Origin: Glycomyces sp. YM15
Lineage (GTDB): Bacteria; Actinomycetota; Actinomycetes; Mycobacteriales; Micromonosporaceae
Length of the DNA: 64,000 bases
NCBI RefSeq assembly: GCF_016918015.1
Contig: NZ_JAERMK010000005.1
Coordinates: 104,761-168,760, forward strand
Reading direction: 5' to 3'
The notes below the pieces were generated by a model. The model ran no database searches. It was given only the letters and a program-made list of their open reading frames with translations, and was not told the origin of the DNA. Positions 4,073 to 22,973 of the stretch are shown in pieces (positions within the stretch are counted from its first letter, which is position 1; each line of letters opens with the position of its first letter). The position numbers were made by a program, and so were the translations under genes.

Positions 4073-4115
4073 CCGCCCGGTGGCGCACAGGCTACCAACC
4101 AGTTCCACCGGGCGG
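4073..4115 (+). promoter_or_regulatory. 5'-UTR hairpin before the 4140 operon
   Basis: CCGCCCGGTGG (4073-4083) pairs perfectly with CCACCGGGCGG (4105-4115) across a 21-nt loop. The stem ends ten bases before the AGAAGGAGA ribosome-binding site (4125-4133). It may stabilise the mRNA or attenuate it; no alternative pairing was found by eye. Confidence 0.5.
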
Positions 4116-4139
4116 CCCGACAACAGAAGGAGACCTTCC

Positions 4140-5719: not shown

Positions 5720-5726
5720 GAACACC

Positions 5727-6961: not shown

Positions 6962-6971
6962 CGAAGGGACA

Positions 6972-7003
6972 GGGCCGGTCGATTCCCGCAGATCGACCGG
7001 CCC
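6972..7003 (+). terminator. 12-bp terminator hairpin
   Basis: GGGCCGGTCGAT (6972-6983) and ATCGACCGGCCC (6992-7003) are perfect complements around an 8-nt loop, 11 bases after the operon's last stop codon. CCCCATTT follows. It ends the 4140-6961 operon. Confidence 0.8.
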
Positions 7004-7258
7004 GCCCCATTTCCACCGTCTGCCGATCTTCCACAGCCGCCCTACAAGCTCCTCGGCAAGCTCATCGATCGTGGACTTCATGGCGACCTTGACCACGAGA
7101 GAGATCGGCCAAGGACTCTGGCCACGCAGCTTCCTCACAGAGTTTTCGGGCCAGACGCCAGACCAGGAGATTCTGACGTCTTGAAGGCGTCAAACGTACG
7201 ATTTGAATGTAACCTTCGCGACAGCGGGAGACCACCGGACAGCACTTAGTGTTGGAAG

Positions 7259-7495
7259 ATGGATTTCACGGCCCTCGGTCCCTGGATCGCTGCTGCCGCA
7301 GCGACTTCGGCACTGGTGCGCGCCTTCGTGGTCTGGATGGCATTGCGCGGCACGAAGCCTCAGGATCGTCCCGAGATCCTCCGTGCACTGCCAAGTCACC
7401 GCCCGATCAAGTACCTCGACCGGTCCAGCCGCCCGGTGGAGATTCCACCCACCAGGGCTGCTGAGATACCCGACAGAGAGACCTCCTCAACCTGA
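7259..7495 (+). CDS. Small single-pass membrane protein (GTKPQDRPEILRAL type)
   Basis: A 78-residue protein with one hydrophobic helix (residues about 9-29), followed by ALRGTKPQDRPEILRALPSH. Short actinobacterial proteins with one membrane helix and a G-T-x-P-x2-R-P-x-I-L-R-A-L segment are widespread, often near integrative elements; their role is not known to me. GTTGGAAGATG gives a plausible ribosome-binding site. The 297 bases upstream (6962-7258) hold the terminator and probably this gene's promoter, nothing else. It sits at the border between the unknown operon and the defence island, its stop 165 bases from the methyltransferase gene's end. Confidence 0.55.
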   Translation: MDFTALGPWIAAAAATSALVRAFVVWMALRGTKPQDRPEILRALPSHRPIKYLDRSSRPVEIPPTRAAEIPDRETSST

Positions 7496-7660
7496 TAGAC
7501 GCTCAAGAAGTGCGGGAACACAGCAGCCGATCCGCCTACAGAGTCGGACGAGCGCCGGTACCAGGCTCGCCGTCCGAGAGCAGATTCTCCGGGCGCGAAC
7601 CCGCCGCCAAGACTCTAAAAGCCGATGCGAACGGCACCAGCCACCCCCGCCAGGACGCGT

Positions 7661-10600
7661 TCAGAAGAGTGAGTCCTGGCCCTCGGCCGGAGTCTTGAGC
7701 TTGGACACCTTCTTCGCAGTCTTCTTGGCCGCCTTGCCTTTCAGATGGAGCCCCTGCTTGACTTCTTCGGCGTAGCGACGCTGGTTCTCCTCAAGGAGAC
7801 GGTCAAGAATCTCCTGCCGAGGCCCGGGCGCGATCGTGTACCGGTCACCCTGACGGGTCTCGTAGTGGTCGTGGGCCAGTTCAGGAATTAGGTCGTCCCA
7901 GCCGTAGCACCGACACGCCTCGATGTCGATCAGCCGATGAATCTCCCGCAAGTTCAAGATGTCCGGGTCTGCATTTGCCCGGTCATGAACCATGTTGTAG
8001 GTATCAGTCAGCCCAGCCTGCCGAGCAAGCATCAGCTCGCGCCGCTCAGAATCCAACCGAACCCCAAGCACCCGCAGCTCAGAGGAGAGCTCTGGCCGAG
8101 GAAGCGTCTCAATTACATCCGTGGGCGCGTAGTTCAAATCCGCTTTCATCGTAGAACTCTTCGATAGCGCCCACCAATAATGCGATGCGCTCGATAGGAA
8201 GGCTAGCAATGCAGGATCATCTGAGGCAAACACACCCAGCCTATGTGCAAACACTTGCCCGGTTGGGACCATGACAGGCATCACCACCTTACTAACCAAG
8301 GTGATTACGCAAACCCTATCTAGCGTGGCGATTGCTTCCAACATTTCGGGGCGCCACCTCTCATAGCGCCAGAAATATTTGTGAGCAGGCCCAGGCACCG
8401 CCAATGTGCCGTCAGGCTTTCGCCGCTGGCGCTCTGGCTTTACAAGGCGCTCAACTTGCTCGAAACAGTCGGGGTACGACCTTGCCTGTTCTTCAGCCCA
8501 TCCGTGAAAGTTTATAATCCAACGACTGGCTGAAGAATCGGGGCGTTGATTCAGATCCTGTCCATTCAGATACGGGTAGAGGACATCCTCGTTTCGCTGG
8601 TCAATTTCGATGAGTGCGCGAGCCCTCTCCTCTTCCATCGTGAATCCCATACCGAGGACATACGATCCGATGAAAGCCAAACTTGCGTTCTCCGCCAAGC
8701 GTTCAGGCTGGCCGACAGCCCGCGACTCAATCTCAAGAGAGGTCGTGATTCGCAGTTTAATCCGGGCCCGGTCCAGATAGCGTTCGCCCGAGTCCGAAAC
8801 CGCAACTTTCGAAATCGAGACGCCGCAATATTCCAGCACTGCTCCAGCAGACGGCCATGGCTCACTCTTGATAGCAGTCCGAATACTCCCTCCTTCCGAA
8901 ACAACCCGGTCCAAGCCAATTTCTCGGGTATCGCCTTGTCCCAATGTATTTGTAGCAATGATGCCGATTTGCCCGCCGCCGGACAGCAGATCGTTTGCCC
9001 GGAGTAGAAAATACGCAACTAGGTCGGCACTGCCGCGAACTCGTCGACCAATTTGCTCGACCAAGTATTCACGATAGGCGGTCCCCAGGCTCCCCGTAAG
9101 CTTCTGTCCTCCAAGAAAAGGCGGATTGCCAATGATCGCATCGAACCCTCCTGCCTCGATAACCTCAGGGAAGACGAGCGGCCAGTGGATCGGGTCCCTC
9201 TCGAAAGCTCCAGAGGGTCGATCCGTTCTCAGCCATTGAGCTGCTTGGCGATCCAATTTCGCTCGACCCTCATCGGTCTGGTCGTTGCCGAGATCAGCTG
9301 CGATTAGCCAGTGGTTTTCCTTGCGTCGGTCGTCCTCGTCAACCATCGCTTCGCGTCGATTCGGGTCCTTCGAGCCTCCCGACTTCACACCGCCAGCAAG
9401 CCCAGCACCGACCAACAGGTCTGCATACCGATAGACCTCAGCCGTCAGTTCTTGCGCCCGCTCAAGGAGCTCCCGCTTGATCTCCTGGTCGGTGGCGCTC
9501 TTGTCGCCGATCTCGGCGATGGCCTTTCTCGCCTCCGCAGCCTCGGCGACGATGTCGCGGACATGGGTCGTGTAGTCGAGGATCGTTCCCTCGTGCAGCT
9601 TCCGTCCTTCAACAGGATCTAGGTGCATGTACTCGAGCTGTTCGACGTTCGTGATGCCGAGGAGGCTGTCGCCGCAGACCAACCGGTCATCAAGAAAAGT
9701 AAACGGTCGGTCCTTGTCCATCGACACCAACCAAAGTGACAGCTTGGCCATCTCGACCGCGGCCGGGTTGATATCCGCTCCGTACAAACAGTGCTCGATG
9801 ATGAGTCGTCGGGCTTCGACCAGGTTCGGGTCCTCCCCCGAGCCTTCGCCCTCGTGACTCTCGAGGACCGCTGCGCGCGGGTCGTTCTTGATCTTCCAGG
9901 CCTCCAAGAGCCGTTCAGCAAGGAATCGGCATGCGGCAACCAGAAATGCGGCTGAGCCCATCGCGATGTCGGCGACCTTAAGGGCGAGGATGTCGTCGCT
10001 GCCCTTAAGCACCCACTCACTCTCATTCGCAGTCTGGAGCGGCCCCGGCTCATACACCAGCGGCTCGAGTGCGCCCTTGACCACCTCGTCGGCGAGTTTC
10101 CTGGGCGTGTAGTGCGCCCCGGTGTTTCCGCGCAGCTCCGACTCGGTCATGTAGAGCATGTCCTTTAGAACCACGGTCGCCTGTCCGCGCAGGTCGGCGC
10201 GGATGATGCCGTAGAAGGGCAGGAGCCGGTCGGCCAACGCGCCGTCGTTCCCGGTTACGGCTCGCAGGTCGCGCATTGCCCGTTCGGTCTGCTCGGTGTC
10301 CATGGGCGCCAACAGCTTCGCGATCGCGCTCGCCGATCCGATGCCTGTCTTGCGCTGCTTCTCGAACTGTTCGTACAGCTCCGCCGCGAGCGCGTCGACG
10401 TCCCCGCCGACGGCCTGGCGCATGTCTTCGAGATCGGTCAGGTAGACCTCGGCTTCTTTGCTCTGGCTGCCGATGAGGCCCACGACGATGTCGTCGGCCC
10501 AGCGGCCTTCCCAGGCGAGGAGGCCTTCGTAGACGTAGCCGATCTGTTCGACGCCGAGGCGGTCGAAGTTGAGTTTGCGCCATTCGCCTCGGGGGCGTTT

Positions 10601-11926
10601 GCCGGAGGCGAGTTGGAGTCCGTTGAGGGACTTGGGGGCGCGTTGTCGGCCGGCGCTCATCCAGACGGTGGTGACGGATTTGAGCACATTGTGGACGGTG
10701 CGGTCGTCGATGGCGAGTGGCTCGGCCATGTCGGTGAGCCAGGGGTGGGTGGCGGGGTCGAAGAGGGAGCCGCCGTAGGCCGGGATGGCGAGTTCGGGGG
10801 TGTCGACGCCGCGGTGGACGGCGTTGAAGAGGGCGAGGAGTCGGAGCCAGTGGCGGTGGCTCTGTTCGAGGTGGGCTTCGCTGCCGGAGTCGGCGGTCTC
10901 GCGGAGTTGTTCTGCCGCTTCAGCAATGGAGTAGGACTCGGCGTAGAGGGGGTTGTCGGCGGGGAGGAGGCGTCGTTCTTCGGCGAAGAGGAGGAAGACG
11001 AGGCGCATCATGACGGTGACCGCGCCGCGGTAGACCTCGTCGGCTTCGACGAGTCGGGCGGTGCCGTCTTCGGCGGTGACGGTGATGCCGACGCCGTCGC
11101 GTCGTTTCTTGGCGAGGTGGGCGCGGCCGATGGCTTCGACGAGGAGTTCCACGGCGCGGCGGACCTGGACGCCGAGGGTCTCGGTGAGGTCCTCCTCCTT
11201 CTCGGCGGATTCCTTGAAGAGGGCGGGGAGCTGCTGCGCGGGTTCGTAGTCGGTGAAGCGTCGGAGGTTGAGGAGGCTGTAGAGGGCGCGGAGGACGTCT
11301 CGGTCGCCGCCTTCGGTGATGGTCTCGGTGTCGAAGACGCCGTAGGCGCTCGCGCCGTCGGCCGGGGCGTAGACGAGGGCGAGGTGGCGGCCGTCGGTGG
11401 CGATGCCGAGGTCGACTTTGGCGGCGTTGCAGAGGCGCACGAGGCGGTCGATGGGGGTCGCGGCCCAGGTTTCGCCGGGCATGCGTTTGGCGGGGTGGGT
11501 GCCGCGCGGGGTGACGAGGCCGATGAGGCGGACGTGCTCGCCGTCGTGGAGGGTGAAGCTCGGGTTGACGGTGGTGTCGTGCTGGCCGATGTGGAGGGGC
11601 GCGATGCCGTCGACGGGTTCGCCTGGGCGGGAAGCGAAGTGGAGGCCTTCGTCGCCCCAGCCGAGGAAGTCGGCGAGGATCGCGCGAAGCCAGGTGTCGA
11701 GCACGGCGGGGTCGTCGCGGTCGATGGACCAGTCGTTGCGGGCGTGCTTGAGCTGCTGCCGCTGTTCGGGGGTGACGGCGTCGAGGTCGGGCCAGGCGGC
11801 GGTGAGGACGGGGAGGGACAGCCAGGGGCCGTCGGTGTCGATGAGTTCGATCCAGTCCTGGTGGCCGCAGGTGCGGTCGGCTCCGGTGCGGCGCTTCTTG
11901 AACTGGCGGTTCGCGTTGCGGCTCAA
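7661..11926 (-). CDS. Large N6-adenine DNA methyltransferase, DISARM DrmMI-like
   Basis: A 1421-residue class I SAM-dependent DNA methyltransferase. The SAM-binding motif ADIAMGSAAFL is at about residue 650, GADINPAAVEMAKLSLWL (motif II) near 718, and the catalytic NPPF (IIGNPPFLGG) near 932, marking an exocyclic-amine, probably adenine, methylase. The ~640 N-terminal residues and ~450 C-terminal residues are large flanks of the Eco57I/PglX/DrmMI type; the tail is Lys-rich (KGKAAKKTAKK). I see no PD-ExK nuclease motif, arguing against a self-contained type IIG enzyme. It overlaps the SNF2 helicase gene by 4 bases (ATGA-type), so the two are co-translated. Helicase plus methylase of these sizes is the signature pair of class 1 DISARM. 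Motif I has Ala instead of the usual Cys/Gly pattern, as in several PglX-like enzymes. Codon usage in 8100-9300 is less GC-biased than its neighbours, suggesting a mosaic origin of the C-terminal part. Confidence 0.85.
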   Translation of the reverse strand: MSRNANRQFKKRRTGADRTCGHQDWIELIDTDGPWLSLPVLTAAWPDLDAVTPEQRQQLKHARNDWSIDRDDPAVLDTWLRAILADFLGWGDEGLHFASRPGEPVDGIAPLHIGQHDTTVNPSFTLHDGEHVRLIGLVTPRGTHPAKRMPGETWAATPIDRLVRLCNAAKVDLGIATDGRHLALVYAPADGASAYGVFDTETITEGGDRDVLRALYSLLNLRRFTDYEPAQQLPALFKESAEKEEDLTETLGVQVRRAVELLVEAIGRAHLAKKRRDGVGITVTAEDGTARLVEADEVYRGAVTVMMRLVFLLFAEERRLLPADNPLYAESYSIAEAAEQLRETADSGSEAHLEQSHRHWLRLLALFNAVHRGVDTPELAIPAYGGSLFDPATHPWLTDMAEPLAIDDRTVHNVLKSVTTVWMSAGRQRAPKSLNGLQLASGKRPRGEWRKLNFDRLGVEQIGYVYEGLLAWEGRWADDIVVGLIGSQSKEAEVYLTDLEDMRQAVGGDVDALAAELYEQFEKQRKTGIGSASAIAKLLAPMDTEQTERAMRDLRAVTGNDGALADRLLPFYGIIRADLRGQATVVLKDMLYMTESELRGNTGAHYTPRKLADEVVKGALEPLVYEPGPLQTANESEWVLKGSDDILALKVADIAMGSAAFLVAACRFLAERLLEAWKIKNDPRAAVLESHEGEGSGEDPNLVEARRLIIEHCLYGADINPAAVEMAKLSLWLVSMDKDRPFTFLDDRLVCGDSLLGITNVEQLEYMHLDPVEGRKLHEGTILDYTTHVRDIVAEAAEARKAIAEIGDKSATDQEIKRELLERAQELTAEVYRYADLLVGAGLAGGVKSGGSKDPNRREAMVDEDDRRKENHWLIAADLGNDQTDEGRAKLDRQAAQWLRTDRPSGAFERDPIHWPLVFPEVIEAGGFDAIIGNPPFLGGQKLTGSLGTAYREYLVEQIGRRVRGSADLVAYFLLRANDLLSGGGQIGIIATNTLGQGDTREIGLDRVVSEGGSIRTAIKSEPWPSAGAVLEYCGVSISKVAVSDSGERYLDRARIKLRITTSLEIESRAVGQPERLAENASLAFIGSYVLGMGFTMEEERARALIEIDQRNEDVLYPYLNGQDLNQRPDSSASRWIINFHGWAEEQARSYPDCFEQVERLVKPERQRRKPDGTLAVPGPAHKYFWRYERWRPEMLEAIATLDRVCVITLVSKVVMPVMVPTGQVFAHRLGVFASDDPALLAFLSSASHYWWALSKSSTMKADLNYAPTDVIETLPRPELSSELRVLGVRLDSERRELMLARQAGLTDTYNMVHDRANADPDILNLREIHRLIDIEACRCYGWDDLIPELAHDHYETRQGDRYTIAPGPRQEILDRLLEENQRRYAEEVKQGLHLKGKAAKKTAKKVSKLKTPAEGQDSLF

Positions 11927-14900
11927 CGGTTTTCCCTTTCAGGGACGACGCAGACGATGGCGATCGGGGTGCGGTGGCCGACCGGGTCGGCGTAGTGGGC
12001 GGCGACGCGGGCGACCTCGCGGTCGCGCTCGGTCTCGAGCTGCTTGAGGCGTTCGGACCAGTGCGCCTCGTCGCGGCGGGCCTGCTGGAGTTCGAGGTCG
12101 GCGAGGCCGAACAGCTCGTTCTCGTCGGTCTCGCGGCCGCGGATGGCCGCTTCGAGGGAGGCCCGGAACTGGTCGTAGTCGGAGCGGATGCGGGCCCGCT
12201 CCTCCTCGACGCGCTTCTCGAGCTGGCGTTCGAGGGCTTCACTGCGGGTCTTGGTCCGCCAGTCGAGCGAGTCGCTGAGGCCGCGGTGGATCTCCTTGGC
12301 GTGCTCGGCGATCCGCAGCTGCGCGCCGGGCCGGGCCGCGGTGCCGCGGTCGAGGGCGCTGTCGAGGATGTCCCGGGAGCGCGTCAGGTTCTCCAGGCGG
12401 CGGAAGCGGCCGGTGTGCAGGTCGAGCCAGCCGCCCACGGCCATGAGCTCCTGGTGCAGTTGGGCGGAGTCGCCGCCGGTGAGCGTGTACTTCGCGTACG
12501 CGCCGACGAAGAGGTCCTCGAGATCGTCGGGGCCGACGACGGCGGTCACGCGGTGCAGGTCGACCCGGTCGGTGCTGGCGGCGGCGCGCAGCAGCCGCGC
12601 CGACATGTCGACCAGCGGGTGCGAGAGGTGCGCGAGGACCACGTCGTCGCGGCCGCGCGCGACCAGCGGGTCGAACGTGATCGGCCGCCGGTACGACTCC
12701 TGGCCCTCGGGGACGAACGGCGTGTCCAGGCCGTCGAGCGCGCGGACCCACTCGCCCGTGAGGTCGGGGACCTTGTAGAGCGTCGCGTCGCTCTCAGGGT
12801 CGGTGACCGGTTCGAGCTGCACGTTCTGGTGGGCCAGAACGAGGGCGGTGTTGACCACCTCGCGGATGCGCTCGGGGTGGAGGTGCAGCTTGTTCTGGCT
12901 CTCGGCGAACACGTCGTCGAGCTCGGCGACCTGCGCGGAGACGTCCGCGGTGGCCTTCACCTCGCCGCGCCCCCTGCCCCTGGCGACCGCCTGGTTCGTG
13001 AGCGCGTCCACGTCGGCGACCGAGGCATCGCCCGCGAGGCGCTTCTGGAGGGCTCCGGCGAGGACCGGGTTGACCGAGCCGAGGTCGGTCTCCATCTGGC
13101 TGACCTTCACCGCGACCCGGGCGAGGAACTCGATCTCGCCCTTGAACGCCGAGTCGGGGACGGCGGCGCCGGGCACGAAGTTGTAGACCTTCGGGTTCTC
13201 GCGCTGGCCGTACCGGTCGATGCGACCGGCCCGCTGCTCGAGTTTGTTGGGGTTGAAGGGGATGTCGTAGTTGACGAGGCGGTGGCAGTGGTTCTGCAGG
13301 TCGATGCCCTCCCCCGCCGCGTCCGTGGCGAGCAGGATGCGGAGCGGGTGGGCGGCCGGGTCGGCCTGGAACGCGAGGCGGATCTGCTCGCGGTCCTCGA
13401 TGTCCATGCCGCCGTGCAGGAGTGCGACGCGGTCGCCGCCGAAGCCTTGGGAGGCGAGGAGTTCGTGGAGCCAGTGGAGGGTGTCGCGGTACTCGGTGAA
13501 GACCACGACGCGCTCGTTCGACCAGGAGGCGCCGATCTTGCAGGTCTCGGTGAGGAAGGCGAGGAGGCGGGCGGCCTTCGTGTCGGGGCGGGCCGCGTGC
13601 TGGATCGCCCAGTCGCTGATCGCGGCGAGCGCCCGGCGCTCGGTCGGGTCGAGGCGCTCCTCATAACCCGCCGAGCGGCGCAGGGTCTCGTTCTCGTACT
13701 CGAAGAGCTCGTCGTCGTCGAGGACGGCGGCCTCGTCTCCGTACTCGTCGAAGTAGTCGGGCACGTCGTCGCTGAACGGGGCCGGTTCGGCCGGGAGCGC
13801 CCCCGAATAGGAGGCGTAGGTGTTCGCGAACGCGCGGGGGCTGGAGAGCAGGCGCTTCTTGAGCAGGAGCGTCACCAGGTCGGAGGCGGCCCGGCCGCGG
13901 CGGCCCTTCACCCGGCGGGCGCGGCGGGCGGTCGTGAACTCGCTGAAGAGCCGGTGGACTTCGAGCTCGTCGTCCGTGTAATCGAGGCGCAGGTCGCGGA
14001 CCTCGCGGGACGGGAACTCGGGGTTGCCGTGCGCGTCGACGATGCTCGACTTGAGACGGCGGATCACCACCGACTCCTGCGCGGCGGGCGACGGCGTGAC
14101 CCCGCGGGCGAAACGGGCCGGGTCGAGGATCTCCAGCAGGGCGGTGAACGACTCCGGATAGCCGTTGTGCGGTGTGGCCGAAAGGAACAGGCGGTGCGTG
14201 AAATGGGCGGCCAGCGCGCGGATGGTCTTGGTCTGCTGGGAGTCGACGGCGTAGCGCTGCTTGGGCGCGGCGGGCGCGATGTGGTGGGCCTCGTCGAGGA
14301 TGAGGAGGTCGAAGAACGGTTTCGTGTGCTCGTCGGCGTTCTTCAGGAGTTCGCCGAAGAGGAGCCGGTCGGCTTTGGGGCCGCGCAGCCAGGGGAGGCT
14401 GACGATGGTGTGGCGGTAGATCTCGAAGGGGTTGGCGCCGCTGCCGCGCTCGCGGCGCAGATCGGTGTAGGTCTGGGCGTTGACGATGGTGAAGCGCAGG
14501 CCGAAGAGGCGGAACATCTCGTCCTGCCACTTGGTGGTGAGACCGGCGGGGCAGACGATCATGACGCGCTGGGCGCGGTGGCGGAGGATCAGCTCGGAGG
14601 CGACGAGGCCGGCTTCGACGGTCTTGCCGAGGCCCACGTCGTCGGCGAGGAGCTGGTTGACGCGGGGTGCGGTGAGGGAGCGCCAGACGGGTTCGAGCTG
14701 GTAGGTCTTGACGTCGGCGCCGGAGCGGAACGGGGCCTGGAGTTCGCGGGTGTCGAGGCGGACGAGGGCCGACCAGAGCATGGCGTCGAGGAACGCGGCG
14801 GACTGCTCGGGGCGGTCGAAGCCGTCGCGGGTGATCTCGGGCAGGCCGGAGGCCGGGAGGAGGCGGCGTCCGGGTTCGAGTTCCCAGACGAGGCGGAGGG

Positions 14901-15042
14901 TTTCGCCGAAGCCGTCGTCGGCGAGGCTGGCGAGTTCGACGATGGTGTCGTTGCCTGCGGCGTCGACGGCGGCGACCGTCCAGCGGGAGTCCCTGACCTC
15001 GACCCGGTCGCCGACCGACGGCGCTGCGGAAGGTGTCGTCAT
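11923..15042 (-). CDS. SNF2-family helicase, DISARM DrmD-like
   Basis: A 1039-residue superfamily 2 ATPase. Walker A (DDVGLGKT) lies near residue 136, the DEAH box (LLILDEAHH) near 249, motif III (LSATPHNG) near 290, and motif VI (QRAGRIDRYGQ) near 607, after DAAGEGIDLQ. This is the complete Snf2/RapA-like translocase core. Gaps and the ~400-residue coiled, charged C-terminus match DrmD of class 1 DISARM in length. It should move on double-stranded DNA and, with the co-translated methyltransferase, exclude unmodified foreign DNA. No promoter of its own is obvious; 15043-15165 separates it from the EVE-CBS-HEPN gene, which probably leads the operon. DrmA, DrmB and DrmC are not in the window. 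Confidence 0.85.
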   Translation of the reverse strand: MTTPSAAPSVGDRVEVRDSRWTVAAVDAAGNDTIVELASLADDGFGETLRLVWELEPGRRLLPASGLPEITRDGFDRPEQSAAFLDAMLWSALVRLDTRELQAPFRSGADVKTYQLEPVWRSLTAPRVNQLLADDVGLGKTVEAGLVASELILRHRAQRVMIVCPAGLTTKWQDEMFRLFGLRFTIVNAQTYTDLRRERGSGANPFEIYRHTIVSLPWLRGPKADRLLFGELLKNADEHTKPFFDLLILDEAHHIAPAAPKQRYAVDSQQTKTIRALAAHFTHRLFLSATPHNGYPESFTALLEILDPARFARGVTPSPAAQESVVIRRLKSSIVDAHGNPEFPSREVRDLRLDYTDDELEVHRLFSEFTTARRARRVKGRRGRAASDLVTLLLKKRLLSSPRAFANTYASYSGALPAEPAPFSDDVPDYFDEYGDEAAVLDDDELFEYENETLRRSAGYEERLDPTERRALAAISDWAIQHAARPDTKAARLLAFLTETCKIGASWSNERVVVFTEYRDTLHWLHELLASQGFGGDRVALLHGGMDIEDREQIRLAFQADPAAHPLRILLATDAAGEGIDLQNHCHRLVNYDIPFNPNKLEQRAGRIDRYGQRENPKVYNFVPGAAVPDSAFKGEIEFLARVAVKVSQMETDLGSVNPVLAGALQKRLAGDASVADVDALTNQAVARGRGRGEVKATADVSAQVAELDDVFAESQNKLHLHPERIREVVNTALVLAHQNVQLEPVTDPESDATLYKVPDLTGEWVRALDGLDTPFVPEGQESYRRPITFDPLVARGRDDVVLAHLSHPLVDMSARLLRAAASTDRVDLHRVTAVVGPDDLEDLFVGAYAKYTLTGGDSAQLHQELMAVGGWLDLHTGRFRRLENLTRSRDILDSALDRGTAARPGAQLRIAEHAKEIHRGLSDSLDWRTKTRSEALERQLEKRVEEERARIRSDYDQFRASLEAAIRGRETDENELFGLADLELQQARRDEAHWSERLKQLETERDREVARVAAHYADPVGHRTPIAIVCVVPERENR

Positions 15043-15165
15043 GAGCTCCCTCTCTGAGTGGGCGGCGACGGCTCGTGCACGGGGTGCGTGAACCGTTTCA
15101 CGAGGTTATCAGGGTGTCGGCGAACAATCATGTCCCACATAGGAGGGGACCTCGGATCGGGGCGG

Positions 15166-16836
15166 TCACTCCCGCTGCTGCACGCGACTGAGGATGTTCC
15201 GAAGCCCTTCGAGGGCGTCGAGCTGCTCTTTCGACTGCGAGTCGGACGAGAAGTGCATGATCGAGTTCCGGATCTCTATCACCTCCGTGAGCTGCGCGAG
15301 GAACCGCTCCTGGGAGATCCGCCATGACAGCCTCGACCAGTACTTCTCCCGCTTCAGGATGTGCCAGTAGTCGCCGAGGAAGAGGTCTGCGGCGCTGTGC
15401 ACCTCTTTGTTGCCGCGGCGTGTGCCGCCGCGGATCTCATTGAGGGTGAGAGCGCCGTCGATCGCGCGGCGGAGCCGGTTCTCGATCTCCTCCAGGATGC
15501 TGAGGGGCCGCACGAACGCCCCGAAGGTGCGGGTGAGGTCGGCCGCGGTGAGGATGCCGTCGATCGAGGTCCGGTCGAAGGAGTACACGAATACGAACCC
15601 GTGGTCGAAGATGAGGTTGATCTTAGGCAGGAGGTGGTCGCCGCGGTAGGCGGTGGGGATCTGGTCGTCGAGCACGTCAAGAAGTTTCGGCTCTTCGTGG
15701 ACCATGTGGGCGCGCATGATGCTCTCGGCGGTGACGGCGCCCTGGTAGTTCCCGTCGGCGTCGACGACCGCGAGCTGCGAGAAGTTCTTCTGGACCATGA
15801 TGTGCCTGGCCAGCTCGAACGTGGTCTCGGTCGTGATCGGCTTCGTCGGGGCCGGCAGGTTGCCGATGACGAGCTCGATAGAGGCCGAATCGGGCCCGGA
15901 CAGGTCCTCGGTCTCATCGGCTTTCTCGGAGGCGCTCCCGTTCGCGCTCTGGTCGACGGGCCCCTCGACGCCCCCCTCCTCGGTTTCGGACTCCTCGTCC
16001 GACTCGGATCCGGCTTCCTCGATCGGCTCGGGCTCCTCGGCGGATTCGGCATCGGCGGGCTTGGCCGCCTCGGGGTCGATCGCGACCAGGCGGACCTTTC
16101 GTTCGAGCCCGCCTTGGGTGAACGGCGGATTCGTGGTGAGACCCGAGGCGAGCAGGTCGCGTTTGATCTCGGCGACGGCGGTATTGCTCCGCTGCTGGTG
16201 ACCCCAGAACTTGAGGAGTTCGAGGACTTCCAGTTCGAGGGGTTCCCCGACCGCCCGTTCGGCGGCCAGACCCAGCATTCGGTTGAGCTCCGCCCGTTCA
16301 TCGGCATCGCCGTCACCGGGATCGATGCCGGAATTCGCGAGGCTGGCGACCCGGGCCGCGGCGTCGTTGTCGGCGAGTTCACGGACTGAGACCAGGGAAC
16401 CGAGGTTCGCTCTCAGGTCTGACCGGACCCGTGAGCGGTCGATACCCGTGGTCACCCAGGTGACGGTGAGACCGTGCCGCTCGTACGGGGAGGACTCGCG
16501 CGCGAATCGGTAGGTTTCGACCACGGTGCCGATGGCGACGGTCGCACCGTCCGCCCCCTCGGCTACGACGACGTAATCATCGCGCCGGACCTCGTGCGCG
16601 AGATTCCAGAATTGCGCGGCCTGGTTCATAGCGGGGTTGGACCCTTTGCGGCTGTAGAACGAGACCAGCTGGTGGAACAGCTCCGTCTTGCCGGCGAACT
16701 GCAGCAGATCGCCGGTGACATCGCGGCCTACGGTCAGGCGGGCCCGCTCCCCTTGTATCGGTTCACGGTGGAACGCACCGCGATTGGGCTGGATCAGCCA
16801 GGCGCGAGGGTTCCGCTCGCTCGACACTTGCTCCAT
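15166..16836 (-). CDS. EVE-like / CBS-pair / HEPN fusion protein, candidate defence sensor-effector
   Basis: A 556-residue multidomain protein (start at MEQVSSER; a longer ATG at 16869 would overlap the divergent promoter). Residues about 10-140 (AWLIQPN, NQAAQFWNLAHEV, DDYVVVAEG, GTVVETY) match the EVE/PUA-like reader found at the N-terminus of modification-dependent nucleases. A winged-helix-like part follows (EVLELLKFWGHQ), then an acidic disordered linker. Residues about 320-445 form a CBS pair (FELARHIMVQKNFSQLAVVD and DHGFVFVYSFDRTSIDGILT), a typical adenosyl-nucleotide sensor. The C-terminus is a four-helix HEPN-like domain whose RNSIMH (about residue 522) fits the RX4H active site of HEPN RNases. 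A -10 (TATTCT) 6 bases before the ATG suggests a leaderless mRNA. Inferred role: detects modified DNA or a nucleotide signal and cuts RNA. Domain names are by eye. Confidence 0.7.
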   Translation of the reverse strand: MEQVSSERNPRAWLIQPNRGAFHREPIQGERARLTVGRDVTGDLLQFAGKTELFHQLVSFYSRKGSNPAMNQAAQFWNLAHEVRRDDYVVVAEGADGATVAIGTVVETYRFARESSPYERHGLTVTWVTTGIDRSRVRSDLRANLGSLVSVRELADNDAAARVASLANSGIDPGDGDADERAELNRMLGLAAERAVGEPLELEVLELLKFWGHQQRSNTAVAEIKRDLLASGLTTNPPFTQGGLERKVRLVAIDPEAAKPADAESAEEPEPIEEAGSESDEESETEEGGVEGPVDQSANGSASEKADETEDLSGPDSASIELVIGNLPAPTKPITTETTFELARHIMVQKNFSQLAVVDADGNYQGAVTAESIMRAHMVHEEPKLLDVLDDQIPTAYRGDHLLPKINLIFDHGFVFVYSFDRTSIDGILTAADLTRTFGAFVRPLSILEEIENRLRRAIDGALTLNEIRGGTRRGNKEVHSAADLFLGDYWHILKREKYWSRLSWRISQERFLAQLTEVIEIRNSIMHFSSDSQSKEQLDALEGLRNILSRVQQRE

Positions 16837-16842
16837 CCCAAG

Positions 16843-16906
16843 AGAATACGAGCAGTCGTCGCTTCGCATCGTTGGGGTTGACCCAACGCAGTCGCCTCAT
16901 TACGAT
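16843..16906. promoter_or_regulatory. Divergent promoter with CGTTGGG-N5-CCCAACG operator
   Basis: A perfect 7-bp dyad occupies 16870-16876 and 16882-16888. It overlaps the rightward -35 (TTGACC, 16878-16883), which is 17 bases before TACGAT (16901-16906), a textbook pair. Leftward, TATTCT (16848-16843) is 6 bases before the ATG at 16836. Both arms of the island would therefore start as leaderless transcripts around one operator. The binding protein is not identified. Confidence 0.6.
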
Positions 16907-16913
16907 GCAGCAC

Positions 16914-17762
16914 ATGGCTCCCGATACCCCCGGGCCGCAACGGCATCGCCGGTCAAGTGGTTCGCAGCGCCCCTTCCTCCGGTGGGCCGGGGGCAAGCGC
17001 TGGTTCGTCCAGCACTACGCACATCTCATACCGAACGGATTCGACCGCTACGTCGAACCATTCCTCGGCAGCGGTGCCGTCTACTTCCACCTTGGACCGC
17101 AGCGCGCCATCCTCACCGACGCCAACTGCGACCTCATCACGGCATTCCGAGGCATTCGCGCACGGCCGGTCGCCGTCATGCGCCATTTGACCGAACACCA
17201 GCGACGCCACAGCGCCGCCTACTATCGCCAGATACGGGCCTCGAACCCGCCGTTACTCTCCGAGCGCGCCGCACGGATCATCTACCTCAATCGGACCTGC
17301 TTCAACGGCGTCTATCGGGTGAACCTGCACGGTCGGTTCAATGTCCCCATGGGGGATCGCAGCACGATCGTCTACGACACCGACGACTTCCGCTCGCTCG
17401 CGAGAACCCTCGGCGACGCCGAGCTCGGCGTCGCCGACTTCGAAACCACGATCGACCGCACAGGCTATGGCGACCTGGTCTATGCCGACCCTCCATACAC
17501 CGTGCGACACAACAACAACGGCTTCATCAAGTACAACGAGACCCTCTTCTCCTGGGACGATCAGGAGCGCCTCGCCAAATGCCTCACCCGCGCCGCCGAG
17601 CGCGGCGTCAAAGTGCTCGCGACCAATGCCGCGCATGACAGCGTCCGCGAACTCTACGCGGACCACGGCTTCACCCTCACCGAAGTCTCACGGTTCAGCC
17701 CGATCGCCGCTTCGGCGCGAGACAGGAAGCAGTACACCGAAATCGTCATCTCCACTACCTGA
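16914..17762 (+). CDS. Dam-type D12 class N6-adenine DNA methyltransferase
   Basis: A 282-residue enzyme with all D12-class landmarks: FLRWAGGKRW (motif X/I, near residue 18), VEPFLGSGAVYF, a LTDAN acidic residue, and catalytic DPPY (VYADPPYT, near residue 193), with YLNRTCFNGVYRVN between. The start ATG at 16914 sits 7 bases after the TACGAT -10 hexamer; ATGs at 16905 and 16872 are in frame but lie in or before the promoter. It would methylate a short adenine-containing site, protecting host DNA from the nucleases next door. It is followed 10 bases later by the HerA-like gene, implying one operon. Orphan Dam enzymes are unusual in high-GC actinobacteria, which supports a defence context. Confidence 0.85.
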   Translation: MAPDTPGPQRHRRSSGSQRPFLRWAGGKRWFVQHYAHLIPNGFDRYVEPFLGSGAVYFHLGPQRAILTDANCDLITAFRGIRARPVAVMRHLTEHQRRHSAAYYRQIRASNPPLLSERAARIIYLNRTCFNGVYRVNLHGRFNVPMGDRSTIVYDTDDFRSLARTLGDAELGVADFETTIDRTGYGDLVYADPPYTVRHNNNGFIKYNETLFSWDDQERLAKCLTRAAERGVKVLATNAAHDSVRELYADHGFTLTEVSRFSPIAASARDRKQYTEIVISTT

Positions 17763-17771
17763 GGAGCCGAC

Positions 17772-19769
17772 ATGAATCCCTCTTCGCCGGTCCGCCCGTT
17801 CGACGTGTTGACCCGCTTCTTGGAACGGGAGCACGCCTATACGGAGGCCAGTGTCACGAAAGCGGGCATGGAGAAGCAGCTGCGCTTCGTCGGCTATGTA
17901 CTCGACCTGGGATACGACAGCGCTCGTATCATCACCTGCGACCCGCTCAAGAACACCGTCGGCGGCATCCCGCGCTCGTCGTTCCTGATTCTGGCGCCGC
18001 GGAAGCCGAACGGCATCCCGCCGCACTTCAGCGTCCTCCGGGTCCGAGACATCGCCCCCACGCCGCTGTCGGAACAAGTTCAGCAGACCTATTTCGAGCT
18101 GCACAAGAAGTCCATGCCCGAACTGGACATCTGGACTACCAACGAATTGCAGTGGGGCGCCCTCAACTGCGACATGCTCGGCATGATGTACCCCGACCCC
18201 GGCGACCCCGAAAATGTGGCGTTCGCCGGAGACCAGACGAACATCCGCAGCCCCCATCATTACCTGGTGTATTCGCCCCCGGATGAGGTCCTGGATCTCA
18301 TCGTGAACGGCCTGATCCCGGCTCGACGCGAGCACGCCTGGGGCATCGGAACACTGCGGCCGACCGAAACCCAGTTCCACCACTTGCTCAACGGGTCCAA
18401 GAAGATCCCGCCGATCGAGGTACGTCTCGCCAGCGCCGACTTCATCGGAACGCGCACGGCGATGTTCGGCAAGACCCGGCTAGGCAAGTCCAACGTCGTG
18501 AAGCTCATCGCGGAAGGCCTGATCACCAGTCCACCGCCGAACACGACGGTCGGGCAGATCATCTTCGACATCAACGGCGAGTATGCGAACGACAATGCCC
18601 AGGACGGCGGTGGCGAGGAAGGCGGGTCGCTGTACAAGGCGCATGCCGACAAGTGTGTGGTCTACGCCCTCAAACCGCGCGCGAAGACCCCGTCAAAGGA
18701 GCTTCGCTTGAACTTCTATGAGAATGCTCCGGACGGCATGACCGCCCTACGCGGGTTCCTGGAGTCGAGCGGCAGAGGGTCGATGTACATCAGGGCCTTC
18801 GCCACGACCGACATTCCAGAACCCCGCGAGGTCACCGACCATCAACCGGTGAACGAGCGGAAGCGCCTCGTCCGGAAGGTCCTCGCATACTGGGCCATCC
18901 TCCATAGGGCGGGCTATCCGGCGAATGAGGCCCAACTCGCGGCTCTCAAGATGACGAATGGCGTCGGGAGGTTCAATCCGCAGTTCGATGCCGCGCTCCG
19001 AAGGGAGGCCTACCCGGACAAGCAGCAGCCTCCCGAGCGGATCGACTCGCTCGACCAGCTCGCGTATGAGTTCGACCTCGTCACCCGGCATGCCAAGTCG
19101 GTTCGGTGGGACCTGAACTCCAGTACGGGCAATCCGCTGTTCGACGCCGGCGACCAGGCACTGCTCAAGTTCCTCGTGCCCGACACCGGTGAAGGGCCTC
19201 GGATGCTCGGGGAATACGCGGAGTACCACTCGCCGAACGCCTCCGCCGTCACGAAGGAAATAGTGGGGCACGTCGTTCACGGGAGGACCGTCATCCTGGA
19301 TCTCGGCAGCGCCTCCGACACCATGCGCCAGTATTTCGCAGACATGATCTCGCAGGAGCTCTTCCTGCGCCAGGAGTGGGCCTTCACGCACGACCGCCTG
19401 GACAGGCACTATGTGCAGCTCTACTTCGAGGAGGCCCACAACCTGTTCCCTCCGGGCGGCAGCCAGGACATGAAGGGCATCTACGCCCGTTTCGCCAAGG
19501 AAGGCGCCAAGTTCCACATCGGAATGGTGTACTCCACCCAGTCTCCCTCGACCATCAACGGTGAACTGCTGACGCAGACGGAGAACTTCTTCGTCGGGCA
19601 CTTGTCCTCCGAGCAGGAGACCAAGGCGCTGTCCCGCTTGCAGACCGCGTTCAGCGGTGTCGAGCAGGACATCCTCAGGACCAAGCAGCCCGGTTACATG
19701 CGGATGCTGACCAAGTCCCACCGGTTCGTGATCCCGGTCCAGGCGCGCATGTTCCAGGGCCGGAAGTAG
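17772..19769 (+). CDS. HerA-like hexameric ATPase/DNA translocase
   Basis: A 665-residue P-loop ATPase of the HerA/FtsK type (DUF87). Residues ~1-225 make a beta-rich HAS-barrel-like N-domain; Walker A (GKTRLGKS) is near residue 232, Walker B with catalytic acid (LYFEEAHN) near 550, and the sensor segment MVYSTQSPSTIN near 582. In archaea HerA pumps DNA into the NurA nuclease; in bacteria HerA homologues recur in anti-phage systems with NurA-like, SIR2 or DUF4297 partners. Seven bases separate it from the NurA-like gene, so a complex is likely. An alternative reading as a plasmid mobilisation ATPase is unlikely because no relaxase or coupling protein is near. Confidence 0.85.
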   Translation: MNPSSPVRPFDVLTRFLEREHAYTEASVTKAGMEKQLRFVGYVLDLGYDSARIITCDPLKNTVGGIPRSSFLILAPRKPNGIPPHFSVLRVRDIAPTPLSEQVQQTYFELHKKSMPELDIWTTNELQWGALNCDMLGMMYPDPGDPENVAFAGDQTNIRSPHHYLVYSPPDEVLDLIVNGLIPARREHAWGIGTLRPTETQFHHLLNGSKKIPPIEVRLASADFIGTRTAMFGKTRLGKSNVVKLIAEGLITSPPPNTTVGQIIFDINGEYANDNAQDGGGEEGGSLYKAHADKCVVYALKPRAKTPSKELRLNFYENAPDGMTALRGFLESSGRGSMYIRAFATTDIPEPREVTDHQPVNERKRLVRKVLAYWAILHRAGYPANEAQLAALKMTNGVGRFNPQFDAALRREAYPDKQQPPERIDSLDQLAYEFDLVTRHAKSVRWDLNSSTGNPLFDAGDQALLKFLVPDTGEGPRMLGEYAEYHSPNASAVTKEIVGHVVHGRTVILDLGSASDTMRQYFADMISQELFLRQEWAFTHDRLDRHYVQLYFEEAHNLFPPGGSQDMKGIYARFAKEGAKFHIGMVYSTQSPSTINGELLTQTENFFVGHLSSEQETKALSRLQTAFSGVEQDILRTKQPGYMRMLTKSHRFVIPVQARMFQGRK

Positions 19770-19776
19770 ACCGCTG

Positions 19777-21126
19777 ATGCCGTATCAAGGAGGCGAGCAT
19801 CTTCCGGGCCAGGCGGCCAGCAAGACGAGCCACATCGATGTCATCGAGAGCCGGCTCATGCAGGAGCTGCTGACCCGATTCGAGCGTCGGGAATTCGAGG
19901 ACGACCAGCGTCTGGCACCCTGGTTCCACCTCGACCTGTCCGGTGTGAAGCCGCTCGGTGACACGGTCGCCACCGACGGCTCGCTGCACAAGGTCACCTC
20001 CGATGACGGATTCCGGGAGCTCTGCTTCGTCAAGACGGCCCGGTTCCATCTCCGCACCGGCGACGCCGCCCAGGTCGATCCGCAGTTCCCTCACCCGCTC
20101 CAGATCCAGCGGCTGATGAAGGACGCCGCCATCCATTGCAGTGCCGTTTTCCCGCTGCGGAACATGGTGCTCGGTCGGTTCGCGAACGTCCGGGACTCCA
20201 TCCGGGAGCTCATCCGCGAGATCATCACCCACGAGCACGGCGGCATCGTTTACGAGGCGATGAAGTGGCTGCTGTACCAGGGCTGGGGCCCTGAGTCCGA
20301 GAGCCCCGACCTCGGCTGCCCTGTCAAGGGCTGCAAGTCGGCCGGCCCGCTCCCCTACAACGAGGATGAGGGCCGGTGTCGGGAATGTGGAGCGAAGATC
20401 TACATCACCGATGTCCTCGGTCTGCACCACGATATCGGCGAGGACTCGGCGAGCGAGGCGGTCGCGAACGCGTACATGGCCATCCACGAGGTGCTGCTCC
20501 TGGTCGCGCACCTCTATCGACTCTGGCGATCGGGCGACTTCGACGCGATCGACGACACCTTGTTCGTGAAGGACGGGCCACTGATGTTCCGCGGGCAGTA
20601 TGCGACGCTCACCAAGCGGATGCGGCAGCTGCTGTCGTACTTCAGAGACGAGAACCGGAACATCTACATCGTCGGCCAAGAGAAGTCCGGCCTCGTGTTC
20701 GACCATCTCGAGTCCCAGGTTCGGCATCTCCGCCGGCATTCCGAGCCTGCATGGCCACAGGTCGCGATCCTCTCCCATGCGTACATGCGCGGCCGAGTGC
20801 AGCGTCTCCCAAAGGCACAGCACACGTATGGATCGCGGACGAACTACGGCGAGAAGGTCCTGATACGGCTCGACCCGAGCTTCGCCCTGGCCGTGAACAT
20901 CCCGACCGGCGAGTTCATGAGCAGCGAATCGGCTCCGTCCGAAGCCCACCACTTCATCGGTCTCGACCGAATCATCGCCACGCTCCCTCACCTGGTCAGC
21001 TATTTGCATGAGGGCTCACTGGTGCCGATCAACCTCGCCCATGGCATCGCTTCGCTCTCGTACTACCCCTCAGGAGCCGCCCTGCAACGCTTCGCCGGCA
21101 TTGACGACGTCGCCCGTCCCCCATAG
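19777..21126 (+). CDS. NurA-like nuclease with zinc-ribbon insert
   Basis: A 449-residue protein with the two acidic motifs of NurA nucleases: TVATDGSL (about residue 63) and LFVKDGPLMF (about 262), plus a C-terminal region with His/Asn residues (NLAHG). Between them a CPVKGC...CREC cluster (about 181-205) forms a probable zinc ribbon not typical of archaeal NurA. No signal peptide or membrane segment. It should be the nuclease partner loaded by the upstream HerA ATPase. The gene converges with the exonuclease gene only 22 bases away, leaving little room for a terminator. The start at 19777 follows GGAAGTAG; an ATG start is unambiguous. The NurA identification rests on motifs and context and is probable, not proven. 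Confidence 0.7.
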   Translation: MPYQGGEHLPGQAASKTSHIDVIESRLMQELLTRFERREFEDDQRLAPWFHLDLSGVKPLGDTVATDGSLHKVTSDDGFRELCFVKTARFHLRTGDAAQVDPQFPHPLQIQRLMKDAAIHCSAVFPLRNMVLGRFANVRDSIRELIREIITHEHGGIVYEAMKWLLYQGWGPESESPDLGCPVKGCKSAGPLPYNEDEGRCRECGAKIYITDVLGLHHDIGEDSASEAVANAYMAIHEVLLLVAHLYRLWRSGDFDAIDDTLFVKDGPLMFRGQYATLTKRMRQLLSYFRDENRNIYIVGQEKSGLVFDHLESQVRHLRRHSEPAWPQVAILSHAYMRGRVQRLPKAQHTYGSRTNYGEKVLIRLDPSFALAVNIPTGEFMSSESAPSEAHHFIGLDRIIATLPHLVSYLHEGSLVPINLAHGIASLSYYPSGAALQRFAGIDDVARPP

Positions 21127-21147
21127 GACAGTCTCCGGCTAGGCCGC

Positions 21148-22356
21148 TCAGCGATCGATCCGAGCCAATACCAGGTCCAAGGATTCCGTTCCGATCACCG
21201 GTATGCCGTACTGGCGTGCCTTGGCCGCCTTGCCGGACATGGAGTCCGGGTCGGCCGCGACGACGAGGACGGTCTTCTTGGTGACGCTCGGGGCGACCTT
21301 GAGACCCGCGGATTCGAGGCGGTCGGCCCAGTGCCGCTTCGATTCGGCGAACGACCCTGTCAATACGACCGGGTCTCCGGTCGCCAAATGGAACTCCGGA
21401 CCTCTGGCGGGAGGACCGTCAGCGGGACCGGGCTGCAGCGCCGCGTCGACCGCATTCGTCGGCAACGACAGCAGTGCCGCGACCCGCTCGAGGTCGTGCC
21501 GTTCCTCATCGGTCACCACGCCGTCCGCCAATGCCGCAGCCGCCAGTGCACGAAGGTAGCCGCGATGCAGTTCCAAAGCGGTAGTGCGTCCGATGCCGAG
21601 CGCGGCGGCGGCATCGACGAGCGCGTCAGCTTCGGTGGCCGACACGTGGCGGTCCAAGAGCGCCCGGTCCAGCAGGGCCAGGTACGTATCGGCCTGCGGC
21701 GGGTCGGGAACGCGCGGAATGTGGTCGACGAGGCGCGCGAGGAAATCAGTGCCTTCATTCGCACCCGCTCCACGGCATACGGGCTCGGCGAGACCGGTGG
21801 GCAGAGTCGGCCAGCGGAGTTCGCGCACCAGCTCATCGCGATCGGCCCACAGCGGCTCAGGTCCCATGCTGTTGAGGTAGAGGGCGAGCAGTTCGGCAGT
21901 GGCGAGCACGTCCGACATAGCCGCGTGGGGCCGTTCGTTGGCGATCCCGGCAGCAAGGCAGCAATCGCGGAGACTCCGGCCCGATTCCGGGAGGAAGTAG
22001 TTCGCCCATTGCATGGTGCAGACGCCGAGGTCGAGGAGGTTCGGCAGGTCCTGCCCCAATCGCAGGTATTCGTGGGCGAGGAGGCGCGTGTCGAAGGCGA
22101 GGTTGTGCGCGACGGGGATGCGGCCGCTCAAGCGGTGGAGGATTTCCCCGGCGACCTGATCGAACGTGGGGGCTTTCCTGACGTCGGCGGAGCGGATGCC
22201 GTGCAGCTCCTGCGGGCCGAGATCTCGCTTCGGGTTGACGAGGGTCTCCCAGCGGCCGGTGACCCTGCCATTGCCGTCGACGTGTGCTATCGCGACCTCG
22301 ATGACACGGTCTTTGTTGAACAGGCCGGTCGTCTCGACGTCCAGAACCGCGTACAT
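21148..22356 (-). CDS. DEDD-type exonuclease with TerB-like and BRCT parts
   Basis: A 402-residue protein. Residues 1-170 are a DnaQ-like 3'-5' exonuclease: DVETTGL (Asp6, Glu8), HNLAFDTRLLAHE and the late Asp in AAMSDVLATAELL. A middle helical stretch (about 245-305) with LADGVVTDEERHDLERVAAL resembles TerB-type acidic domains. The C-terminal ~75 residues (VVLTGSFAESKRHWADRLES, KKTVLVVAADPDS) are a BRCT domain, as in bacterial ligase and DinG/DnaQ relatives. The exonuclease-TerB-BRCT architecture recurs in actinobacteria. GGAGGCGAAGGG gives a strong ribosome-binding site. It converges with the nurA-like gene, so it may be a member of, or merely next to, the defence module. Substrate unknown. 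Confidence 0.85.
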   Translation of the reverse strand: MYAVLDVETTGLFNKDRVIEVAIAHVDGNGRVTGRWETLVNPKRDLGPQELHGIRSADVRKAPTFDQVAGEILHRLSGRIPVAHNLAFDTRLLAHEYLRLGQDLPNLLDLGVCTMQWANYFLPESGRSLRDCCLAAGIANERPHAAMSDVLATAELLALYLNSMGPEPLWADRDELVRELRWPTLPTGLAEPVCRGAGANEGTDFLARLVDHIPRVPDPPQADTYLALLDRALLDRHVSATEADALVDAAAALGIGRTTALELHRGYLRALAAAALADGVVTDEERHDLERVAALLSLPTNAVDAALQPGPADGPPARGPEFHLATGDPVVLTGSFAESKRHWADRLESAGLKVAPSVTKKTVLVVAADPDSMSGKAAKARQYGIPVIGTESLDLVLARIDR

Positions 22357-22368
22357 GACCCTTCGCCT

Positions 22369-22407
22369 CCGTCTCGCTGCAGCGAAGTGTTCACTGTAGC
22401 GAGACGG
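22369..22407. promoter_or_regulatory. 10-bp inverted repeat upstream of the exonuclease gene
   Basis: CCGTCTCGCT (22369-22378) and AGCGAGACGG (22398-22407) are perfect complements, and a smaller AGTG-TT-CACT dyad lies inside the spacer. It begins 13 bases upstream of the exonuclease start, overlapping where its promoter should be. It could be an operator or an mRNA 5' hairpin. Confidence 0.4.
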
Positions 22408-22568
22408 AAGGTGTTCGCGGCTCGTACGAACGGTTCGAGTCGTCAGGTAGGTGTCGCGTCGGTGATGGTGACTTTGGAGGCGCCGGTGAGTTGGACGCCC
22501 TCGCTCTGGTCGAAGTCGTAGACGACCAGTCGGGAGATCAGCTCACCCCTGACGTTCGGCGGCCGGGG

Positions 22569-22973
22569 TCAGTGGTTGCGCGCGAAGCCGGAGGTCGACG
22601 CCTTCGCGGGGCGGAAGACCATGAAGACCCTCCGCTCCTGCTCCTTCACGAAGGCGCGCTTGGCATCAGCGTCGGCGGTCGGGGCCAGGCGCCCGAGGCT
22701 CGCGGCCAACTTGAAGAAGCCGTCGCCGGGAAGCCCCGTGTCCCCGTCGCGGACCAGGACCGAGATCATGAGCTTGAGTCCGGTCGCGCTGGAGTGGGCG
22801 GTGGTGATGTCGTCGCAGAGCTTCCCGATCTGACCGGGAAGATTCGCGCCGAGTTTGAACGGCTCGCCGAGTTCACGGTTGAAATCACCGTAGGAGAGCG
22901 TTTCGCCCTGGGAGGCGTACCGCTTGAGGACCTGCAGTCCGGATGCGATGAGAACGGAGTCGTCGTGCGCCAT
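22569..22973 (-). CDS. Small hypothetical protein (SYGDFN type)
   Basis: A 134-residue soluble protein that I do not recognise. It opens with a helix, then GETLSYGDFNRELG (about residues 23-36), an LGANLPGQIGKLCDDI helix and a beta-rich LMISVLVRDGDTGLPGDGFF core, with a charged C-terminal helix (KEQERRVFMVF). Such winged-helix-plus-strand proteins sometimes accompany nucleases, but no catalytic residues stand out. It lies on the same strand as the exonuclease, separated by about 210 bases that hold the inverted repeat at 22369. The start at 22973 is supported by codon bias; the upstream stretch to 23070 is empty. Confidence 0.55.
   Translation of the reverse strand: MAHDDSVLIASGLQVLKRYASQGETLSYGDFNRELGEPFKLGANLPGQIGKLCDDITTAHSSATGLKLMISVLVRDGDTGLPGDGFFKLAASLGRLAPTADADAKRAFVKEQERRVFMVFRPAKASTSGFARNH

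Follow-up and report, generated by a model that had tools for sequence, protein, structure and literature searches.

The closest described counterparts of the locus analysed here are TdpABC of Thermus, which we take to be a phosphorothioation-based system whose TdpC is a DndC-like modification enzyme, and class 1 DISARM. According to the respective reports, the validated prophage system PD-lambda-5 is regarded by its authors as a compacted version of restriction-modification plus abortive infection (PMC9519451), the CBS-HEPN protein DS-11 was validated in DefensePredictor (PMC13092281), and the HerA-NurA pair of T. kodakarensis cuts both strands of double-stranded DNA, with the destruction of foreign DNA considered by its authors (PMC12977600). 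We compared these systems with a stretch of 64,000 nucleotides from Glycomyces sp. YM15 (contig NZ_JAERMK010000005.1, positions 104,761 to 168,760; hereafter the window), in which a block at positions 7661-22973 contains two divergent gene arms. The left arm encodes the DISARM proteins DrmMI and DrmD together with the protein P0003, and the right arm encodes a Dam methylase, a HerA-like ATPase, and a NurA-like nuclease. The block probably holds two neighbouring, separately inherited defence modules, namely class 1 DISARM and a TdpABC-like Dam-HerA-NurA module that would use adenine methylation as a self mark. The former is already known, and the latter appears to be a new relative of the TdpABC type. 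A first-pass annotation of the DNA had instead described the block as a single composite system with no named match; in fact, drmA, drmB, and drmC adjoin it, and the two arms were found together elsewhere in a congener alone.

A conserved Dam-HerA-NurA operon

The right arm comprises three genes on the plus strand. The dam gene (16872-17762) encodes a D12-class adenine methyltransferase (TIGR00571, 213.7 bits against a cut-off of 114.85); its frame opens at a TTG codon, and the ATG at 16905 or 16914 is the likely start. The herA gene (17772-19769) encodes a TdpA-like translocase ATPase of the HerA/DUF87 type (665 amino acids; PF01935, 1.6e-10), and nurA (19777-21126) encodes a TdpB-like nuclease of 449 amino acids with a NurA fold. 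All six frames named in the first-pass annotation, three in each arm, are present in the DNA, and their identities fit the PADLOC, NCBIfam, and Pfam scans or, for NurA, the fold.

Using a HerA alignment, we scanned species-level genomes and obtained at least 498 relatives among 589 stretches, distant ones included, the best 80 of which were examined. Dam, HerA, and NurA are encoded in that order on one strand in 72 of these 80 loci. Among the other eight, the HerA match lies at or near a contig end in seven, and only L135 has space for Dam without a match. The genes are closely packed in the 66 operons that are complete and free of internal stops: 65 have a Dam-HerA gap of -4 to 51 base pairs (bp), with 2542 bp in the other, and 65 have a HerA-NurA gap of -11 to 26 bp, with 181 bp in the other. 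The hosts include both bacteria and archaea, among them Paenibacillus, Clostridium, Proteobacteria, Bacteroidota, Chloroflexi, Treponema, Nocardia, Heimdallarchaeota, and Methanoperedens, and NurA relatives have a patchy occurrence in the order of the window's host (8 of 298 genomes, its own included). Protein distances across 67 operons correlate between Dam and HerA (0.747), Dam and NurA (0.726), and HerA and NurA (0.888), with none of 2000 shuffles reaching any of these values; the correlation supports joint inheritance but not interaction by itself, because shared species history contributes to it. Taken by itself, the right arm is a module with wide conservation, a point overlooked in the first pass. 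We recognised no description of a Dam-HerA-NurA system in the open literature searched, publications outside it not being excluded.

Kinship of the operon to TdpABC

In the PADLOC, NCBIfam, and Pfam scans, HerA matched distant HerA models alone and Dam matched general methylase models; NurA (P0006) had no match in any of the three at the limits used and no meaningful sequence match in PDB. The best PDB sequence match of the window Dam was the DpnII methylase (2dpm, 4.5e-47), followed by DNA adenine methylase entries (1e-27). It belongs to the Dam family by its TIGR00571 score above cut-off, and the DPPY motif is present in all 76 family members. At loop positions 145 and 159, which we take to contact GATC, 48 of the 76 proteins carry N and P, matching the PDB sequences of the DpnII methylase and DNA adenine methylase, 27 carry K and G, and one has gaps, while R149 is retained in 75. 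The window Dam is likely to be specific for GATC, and the K/G group would have another specificity.

The best PDB sequence match of HerA was TdpA (8wet_A, 1.1e-27), the next one reaching 2.3e-10. Its active-site residues are intact: the Walker residues G233, K234, K239, and S240 are present in all 77 family members and E553-H556 in 76, the remaining one having a gap. The fold of NurA is nearest to that of TdpB (root-mean-square deviation of 5.0 over 324 positions). The protein has D67 as its predicted catalytic aspartate and carries a zinc-ribbon-like cysteine cluster at residues 181-204, where the window copy has K184 in place of the family's second cysteine.

Two Thermaceae loci combine a DndC-like enzyme with NurA and HerA, and the one that was tested proved to be TdpABC (TdpA 1.1e-206, TdpB 1.7e-110). 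As a separate observation, a type ISP restriction-modification enzyme is encoded directly upstream of TdpABC-type DndC-like, NurA, and HerA genes in a Thermaceae genome (L166:4775-8977).

Varying modification enzymes

The modification genes that adjoin related HerA-NurA pairs vary. Besides Dam, they encode a distant D12-type enzyme (L013; Pfam 5.9e-10), PF01555 methylases (beside the pairs in Deferribacter and Halorarius), and DndC-like enzymes. The idea of a swapped self mark has a precedent in DndDE-core systems, for which the use of other base modifications instead of phosphorothioation has been described (PMC10853773).

Distant D12-type methylases beside two distant HerA-NurA pairs (L014:9657-10844 and L016:14984-16051) match the PADLOC model PD-Lambda-5_B at 1.1e-52 and 1.4e-63, respectively, and through them PD-lambda-5 and the HerA-NurA family are possibly linked. 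The window arm itself was rejected as a PD-lambda-5 system: its Dam matches PD-Lambda-5_B at 3e-7, compared to 3.7e-92 for a type II methylase model, and P0001-P0008 gave no second PD-lambda-5 model match among the PADLOC matches listed (best 25 per protein).

The class 1 DISARM locus

On the minus strand of the left arm, drmMI (7661-11926) encodes a class 1 DISARM adenine methyltransferase of 1421 amino acids with Eco57I/MmeI domains (PADLOC DrmMI PDLC02643, 1581.8 bits), and drmD (11923-15042) encodes an SNF2-like DISARM helicase of 1039 amino acids (NF038317, 1228.7 bits against a cut-off of 610). The 3' end of drmD overlaps the start of drmMI by 4 bp. These genes had been presented as a DISARM pair without drmA, drmB, or drmC, a claim that we rejected after a search with the DrmB domain PF09369 in the parent genome. 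The match obtained (C45:98735-99034) lies on the window's own contig, some 6 kb to the left of its edge, and all three genes were found just outside the window, above the NCBI curated cut-offs and on the strand of drmMI and drmD. In window coordinates, they lie at approximately -4268 to -558 (drmA; NF038325, 1344.3 bits, cut-off 950), -6127 to -4118 (drmB; NF038324, 647 bits, cut-off 240), and -6870 to -5959 (drmC; NF038319, 205.9 bits, cut-off 133). The order is drmD-drmMI-drmA-drmB-drmC on one strand, with 8218 bp from the likely drmA start to the drmMI stop. Because drmA, drmB, and drmC adjoin on the same contig and strand, the left arm, as judged from its sequence, is a complete class 1 DISARM system and thus already known. 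Beyond drmC, the same strand carries genes for a UvrD-like helicase and then a GmrSD-type protein (stretch L199), the latter type being assigned by Pfam on its relative in the congener G105.

Two features of the DISARM genes were noted in passing. The PADLOC model PDLC02572, labelled DrmA, matches this DrmD over its full length (1104.9 bits) and is probably mislabelled. The G+C content is 0.573 in the C-terminal half of drmMI (window 7661-9600) but 0.67 in the N-terminal half and 0.71 in drmD, which would suit an exchange of the recognition part.

The first reading overlooked drmA because an insert separates it from drmMI. The window part of this insert (1-7660) belongs to neither arm; it encodes an LPXTG-anchored protein on the minus strand (127-1773) and holds a run of plus-strand frames (2070-6961), six of which (138-464 amino acids) were scanned without a Pfam match. 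At E<=1e-60, 30 of the 394 genomes in the class, counting the window's own, have a DrmMI relative, and we compared 20 of the other 29, together with eight stretches from the far side. The drmD gene adjoins drmMI in 19 of the 20 loci, the remaining one (L214) being cut by a contig end. We found drmA in 18 loci, 12 within the first stretch and six of seven after extension, and its spacing from drmMI is 29-242 bp in nine of them and 2.9 to 19.8 kb in the other nine, so that a gap like the present one is a common event. UvrD-like or GmrSD relatives lie close to the drm genes in L223, L224, L225, L226, and L229.

In two of the loci, an opposite-strand copy of the DrmMI target-recognition region lies between drmMI and drmA (L215:7254-9879 and L216:6302-8897). 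The inverted repeats measure 846 bp at 90% and 337 bp at 76% identity, and the L216 interval also carries a serine recombinase (Resolvase, 3.8e-32). Such inverted copies possibly allow DISARM specificity to switch by phase variation.

The divergent protein P0003

Upstream of drmD, and divergent from dam, lies the gene for the accessory protein P0003 (15166-16869, minus strand; 567 amino acids). According to which start codons are used, 2 to about 70 bp separate the P0003 and dam frames. The protein had been called EVE-like/CBS/HEPN, of which the CBS-HEPN part was confirmed: a CBS pair at residues 331-453 is followed by a C-terminal HEPN-type part with the motif RNSIMH (534-539), the R-x4-H motif and the CBS pair being the features of DS-11. 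The score against the DS-11 model NF053863 (209.1 bits) is below the curated cut-off of 260. The putative EVE/PUA-like N-terminal domain was not confirmed, the EVE label having as its sole basis the resemblance of the N-terminus to PADLOC PDC-S02/REase. The N-terminus had no Pfam match and a single chance-level match in a PDB profile search (E 0.3), and a small segment at approximately 190-263, judged by eye, is winged helix-turn-helix-like. The matches listed for a fold search with the whole protein were CBS proteins, and the N-terminal and HEPN folds are putative.

In three other loci (L047, L054, and L062), the neighbourhood of an EVE-like or CBS-HEPN protein includes a Ser/Thr kinase-like gene, an SNF2 helicase (best PADLOC match DrmD, 1e-74 to 1e-78), and large methylase matches. 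This gene group is possibly a separate system.

Relationship between the two arms

The adjacent divergent starts, which are also adjacent in G105, would suit a single composite system in which DISARM (or drmD-drmMI), P0003, and Dam-HerA-NurA cooperate from a common divergent promoter. Two observations among the best 80 loci point the same way. An EVE-like domain lies beside NurA in two other loci, both being broken genes that resemble EVE-Mrr fusions. In L092 of Treponema, NurA is followed after 295 bp by a same-strand gene for a full-length DrmD-family helicase (L092:13585-16689; PDLC02623, 1.5e-200), without a DrmMI match; the one other SNF2 match to DrmD, in L151, is a weakly related gene on the opposite strand. 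The distribution of the arms argues to the contrary. No DrmMI match was found near any of the 80 HerA loci, the 20 DISARM stretches and the eight far-side stretches contain no Dam, HerA, or NurA match, and P0003-type domains are absent from all 28.

In addition, the arms decayed separately in G105, a congener from the same genus. Its Dam, HerA, and NurA are 69%, 83%, and 82% identical to those of the window, and all three frames are open. Its drmD match, frame-shifted near codon 56-58, stops at codon 155 and runs into codon 623 of a UvrD-like gene, past which lies a GmrSD gene that, along most of its length, shares 94% identity with the copy in the window genome. Most simply, a single deletion removed drmMI, drmA, drmB, and drmC. 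The P0003 relative of G105 is interrupted by a stop at codon 314, within the linker ahead of the CBS pair. On the distribution of the arms and this deletion, we rejected the composite system, which we regard as very improbable.

Two further frames within the range of the first-pass annotation could be tied to neither arm: a DEDDh-BRCT exonuclease (P0007, 21148-22356) and a frame without assigned identity (22569-22973). Queried in the 80 HerA loci, P0007 gave a single match of 26% (L147), and P0008 was dismissed as a system part on its location past the deletion junction in G105.

Predicted role of Dam-HerA-NurA

The modification-dependent anti-phage function guessed in the first pass fits the results as a prediction. 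In the mechanism that we propose, Dam would methylate host DNA as a self mark (likely at GATC for the window copy), and a HerA ring would load on DNA and pump it into docked NurA, which would cleave both strands. Methylation would slow or block the loading or translocation of HerA, so that unmethylated phage DNA would be degraded. P0003 may act as an accessory abortive-infection RNase under the control of its CBS pair, which would bind adenine nucleotides; contact of its N-terminal domain with modified DNA is perhaps the trigger.

A defence role is favoured by the kinship to TdpABC and by carriage in viruses. Three viral contigs at 50-53% identity carry all three genes, and more distant ones were seen as well (9 of 25 viral loci were scanned for Dam and NurA). 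Of 50,697 phage records, 2 match HerA. The integrase and excisionase of a Vibrio temperate phage flank HerA, its neighbouring gene, and a type II methylase; the neighbour has no PDB sequence match and is assigned as NurA by position only. This distribution bears on the alternative that HerA-NurA is a DNA-repair end-resection pair, with Dam incidental for strand marking or regulation. We consider a repair role unlikely, as the nearest structure and sequence are those of TdpB and TdpA rather than of repair HerA-NurA, the occurrence within the order is patchy, related pairs lie on plasmids, viral contigs, and a temperate phage, and the modification enzyme varies among relatives.

An equally doubtful alternative is a DNA-transfer or mobility module comparable to the TdtA operon of Thermus ICEth1. 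That HerA-NurA-methylase-type IIG operon has the same kinds of genes and serves DNA donation: when NurA or Tth111II was deleted, transjugation fell 3 to 5 orders of magnitude (PMC5365140). The neighbours of the operon speak weakly to the contrary: the 25 families listed, of 93 Pfam families matched by 107 near genes, include no conjugation or tyrosine-integrase family, and hold two rve matches and one IS66 match. A relationship to Hma or type 1 BREX was rejected, as no DUF499 was found among P0001-P0009 and the ATPase is of the DUF87/HerA type.

Several observations weigh against defence by the Dam-HerA-NurA module as proposed. Its activity is a prediction from the genes, and the ICEth1 operon serves DNA donation. 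As a test for defence islands, the neighbourhood leans towards defence but is weak: 126 PADLOC families were matched among 107 near genes (of 144) versus 61 among 110 far genes (of 120), counts that refer to families, not proteins. The NurA family profile fails to reach TdpB by sequence, so that this link rests on the fold. A single specificity does not fit all Dams of the family, because 27 of the 76 differ at both loop positions. The Deferribacter HerA is interrupted by an insertion sequence, and next to the HerA-NurA pairs on cyanobacterial plasmids (Nostoc, Tolypothrix) a helix-turn-helix regulator but no methylase is listed. The L092 helicase next to NurA counts likewise against separate inheritance of the arms.

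More broadly, and just short of an even chance, these operons may represent an undescribed class of restriction-modification that crosses domains and lacks a sequence-specific endonuclease, a methylation-reading ring pump feeding a docked nuclease instead. TdpABC would then be one branch of a broader HerA-NurA family with an exchangeable mark (adenine methylation with two or more specificities, other methylases, or phosphorothioation), and modified-DNA readers such as P0003 would provide back-up defence against phages bearing the mark. If the right arm works in the proposed way, the motor-nuclease pair found in a phosphorothioation system would be central to a far larger family, its self mark could be swapped, and the question arises of how a translocating ring distinguishes methylated DNA without a sequence-specific endonuclease. 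Because HerA has at least 498 relatives, distant ones included and the best 80 examined, defence annotation could change in many genomes. The DISARM half is a caution, the window edge having given a known system a novel look.

Comparison with known systems

The left arm shares with class 1 DISARM all of drmA, drmB, drmC, drmD, and drmMI, in the same strand and order, and differs in that unrelated genes spanning 8.2 kb separate drmMI from drmA and in that P0003 stands upstream of drmD and divergent from dam. P0003 has the CBS pair and HEPN motif in common with DS-11 but carries an additional reader-like N-terminal domain and has a profile score below the cut-off.

The right arm has the same motor and nuclease folds as the archaeal and Deinococcus HerA-NurA pairs, although the match is weaker than to TdpAB and no SbcC/Rad50 or Mre11 was found among the nine window proteins scanned. 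The methylase family of PD-lambda-5 adjoins distant HerA-NurA pairs (L014 and L016), whereas the accessible text on PD-lambda-5 names no HerA or NurA for it (PMC9519451). The ICEth1 tdtA operon likewise encodes a HerA-like ATPase, a NurA-like nuclease, a methylase, and a type IIG enzyme, but its methylase is of the pfam01555 type, it lies on an integrative and conjugative element, and it serves DNA donation (PMC5365140); the likeness is one of gene kinds only.

TdpABC is the closest relative. Both are compact motor-nuclease pairs that adjoin a DNA-modification enzyme, the window HerA is closest to TdpA in PDB, and the NurA fold is closest to TdpB. A TdpA-like HerA and a TdpB-like NurA are thus present in the right arm; TdpC was sought in the operon and is absent, and therefore the arm is not a member of TdpABC. 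A PAPS reductase was also not found among the window proteins scanned, the rest of the genome lying outside this search. Where TdpABC has the DndC-like TdpC, the window operon has a Dam methyltransferase, its HerA is just 38-41% identical to Thermus-type HerA, in the C-terminal part, and Dam-HerA-NurA is far more widely distributed than TdpABC.

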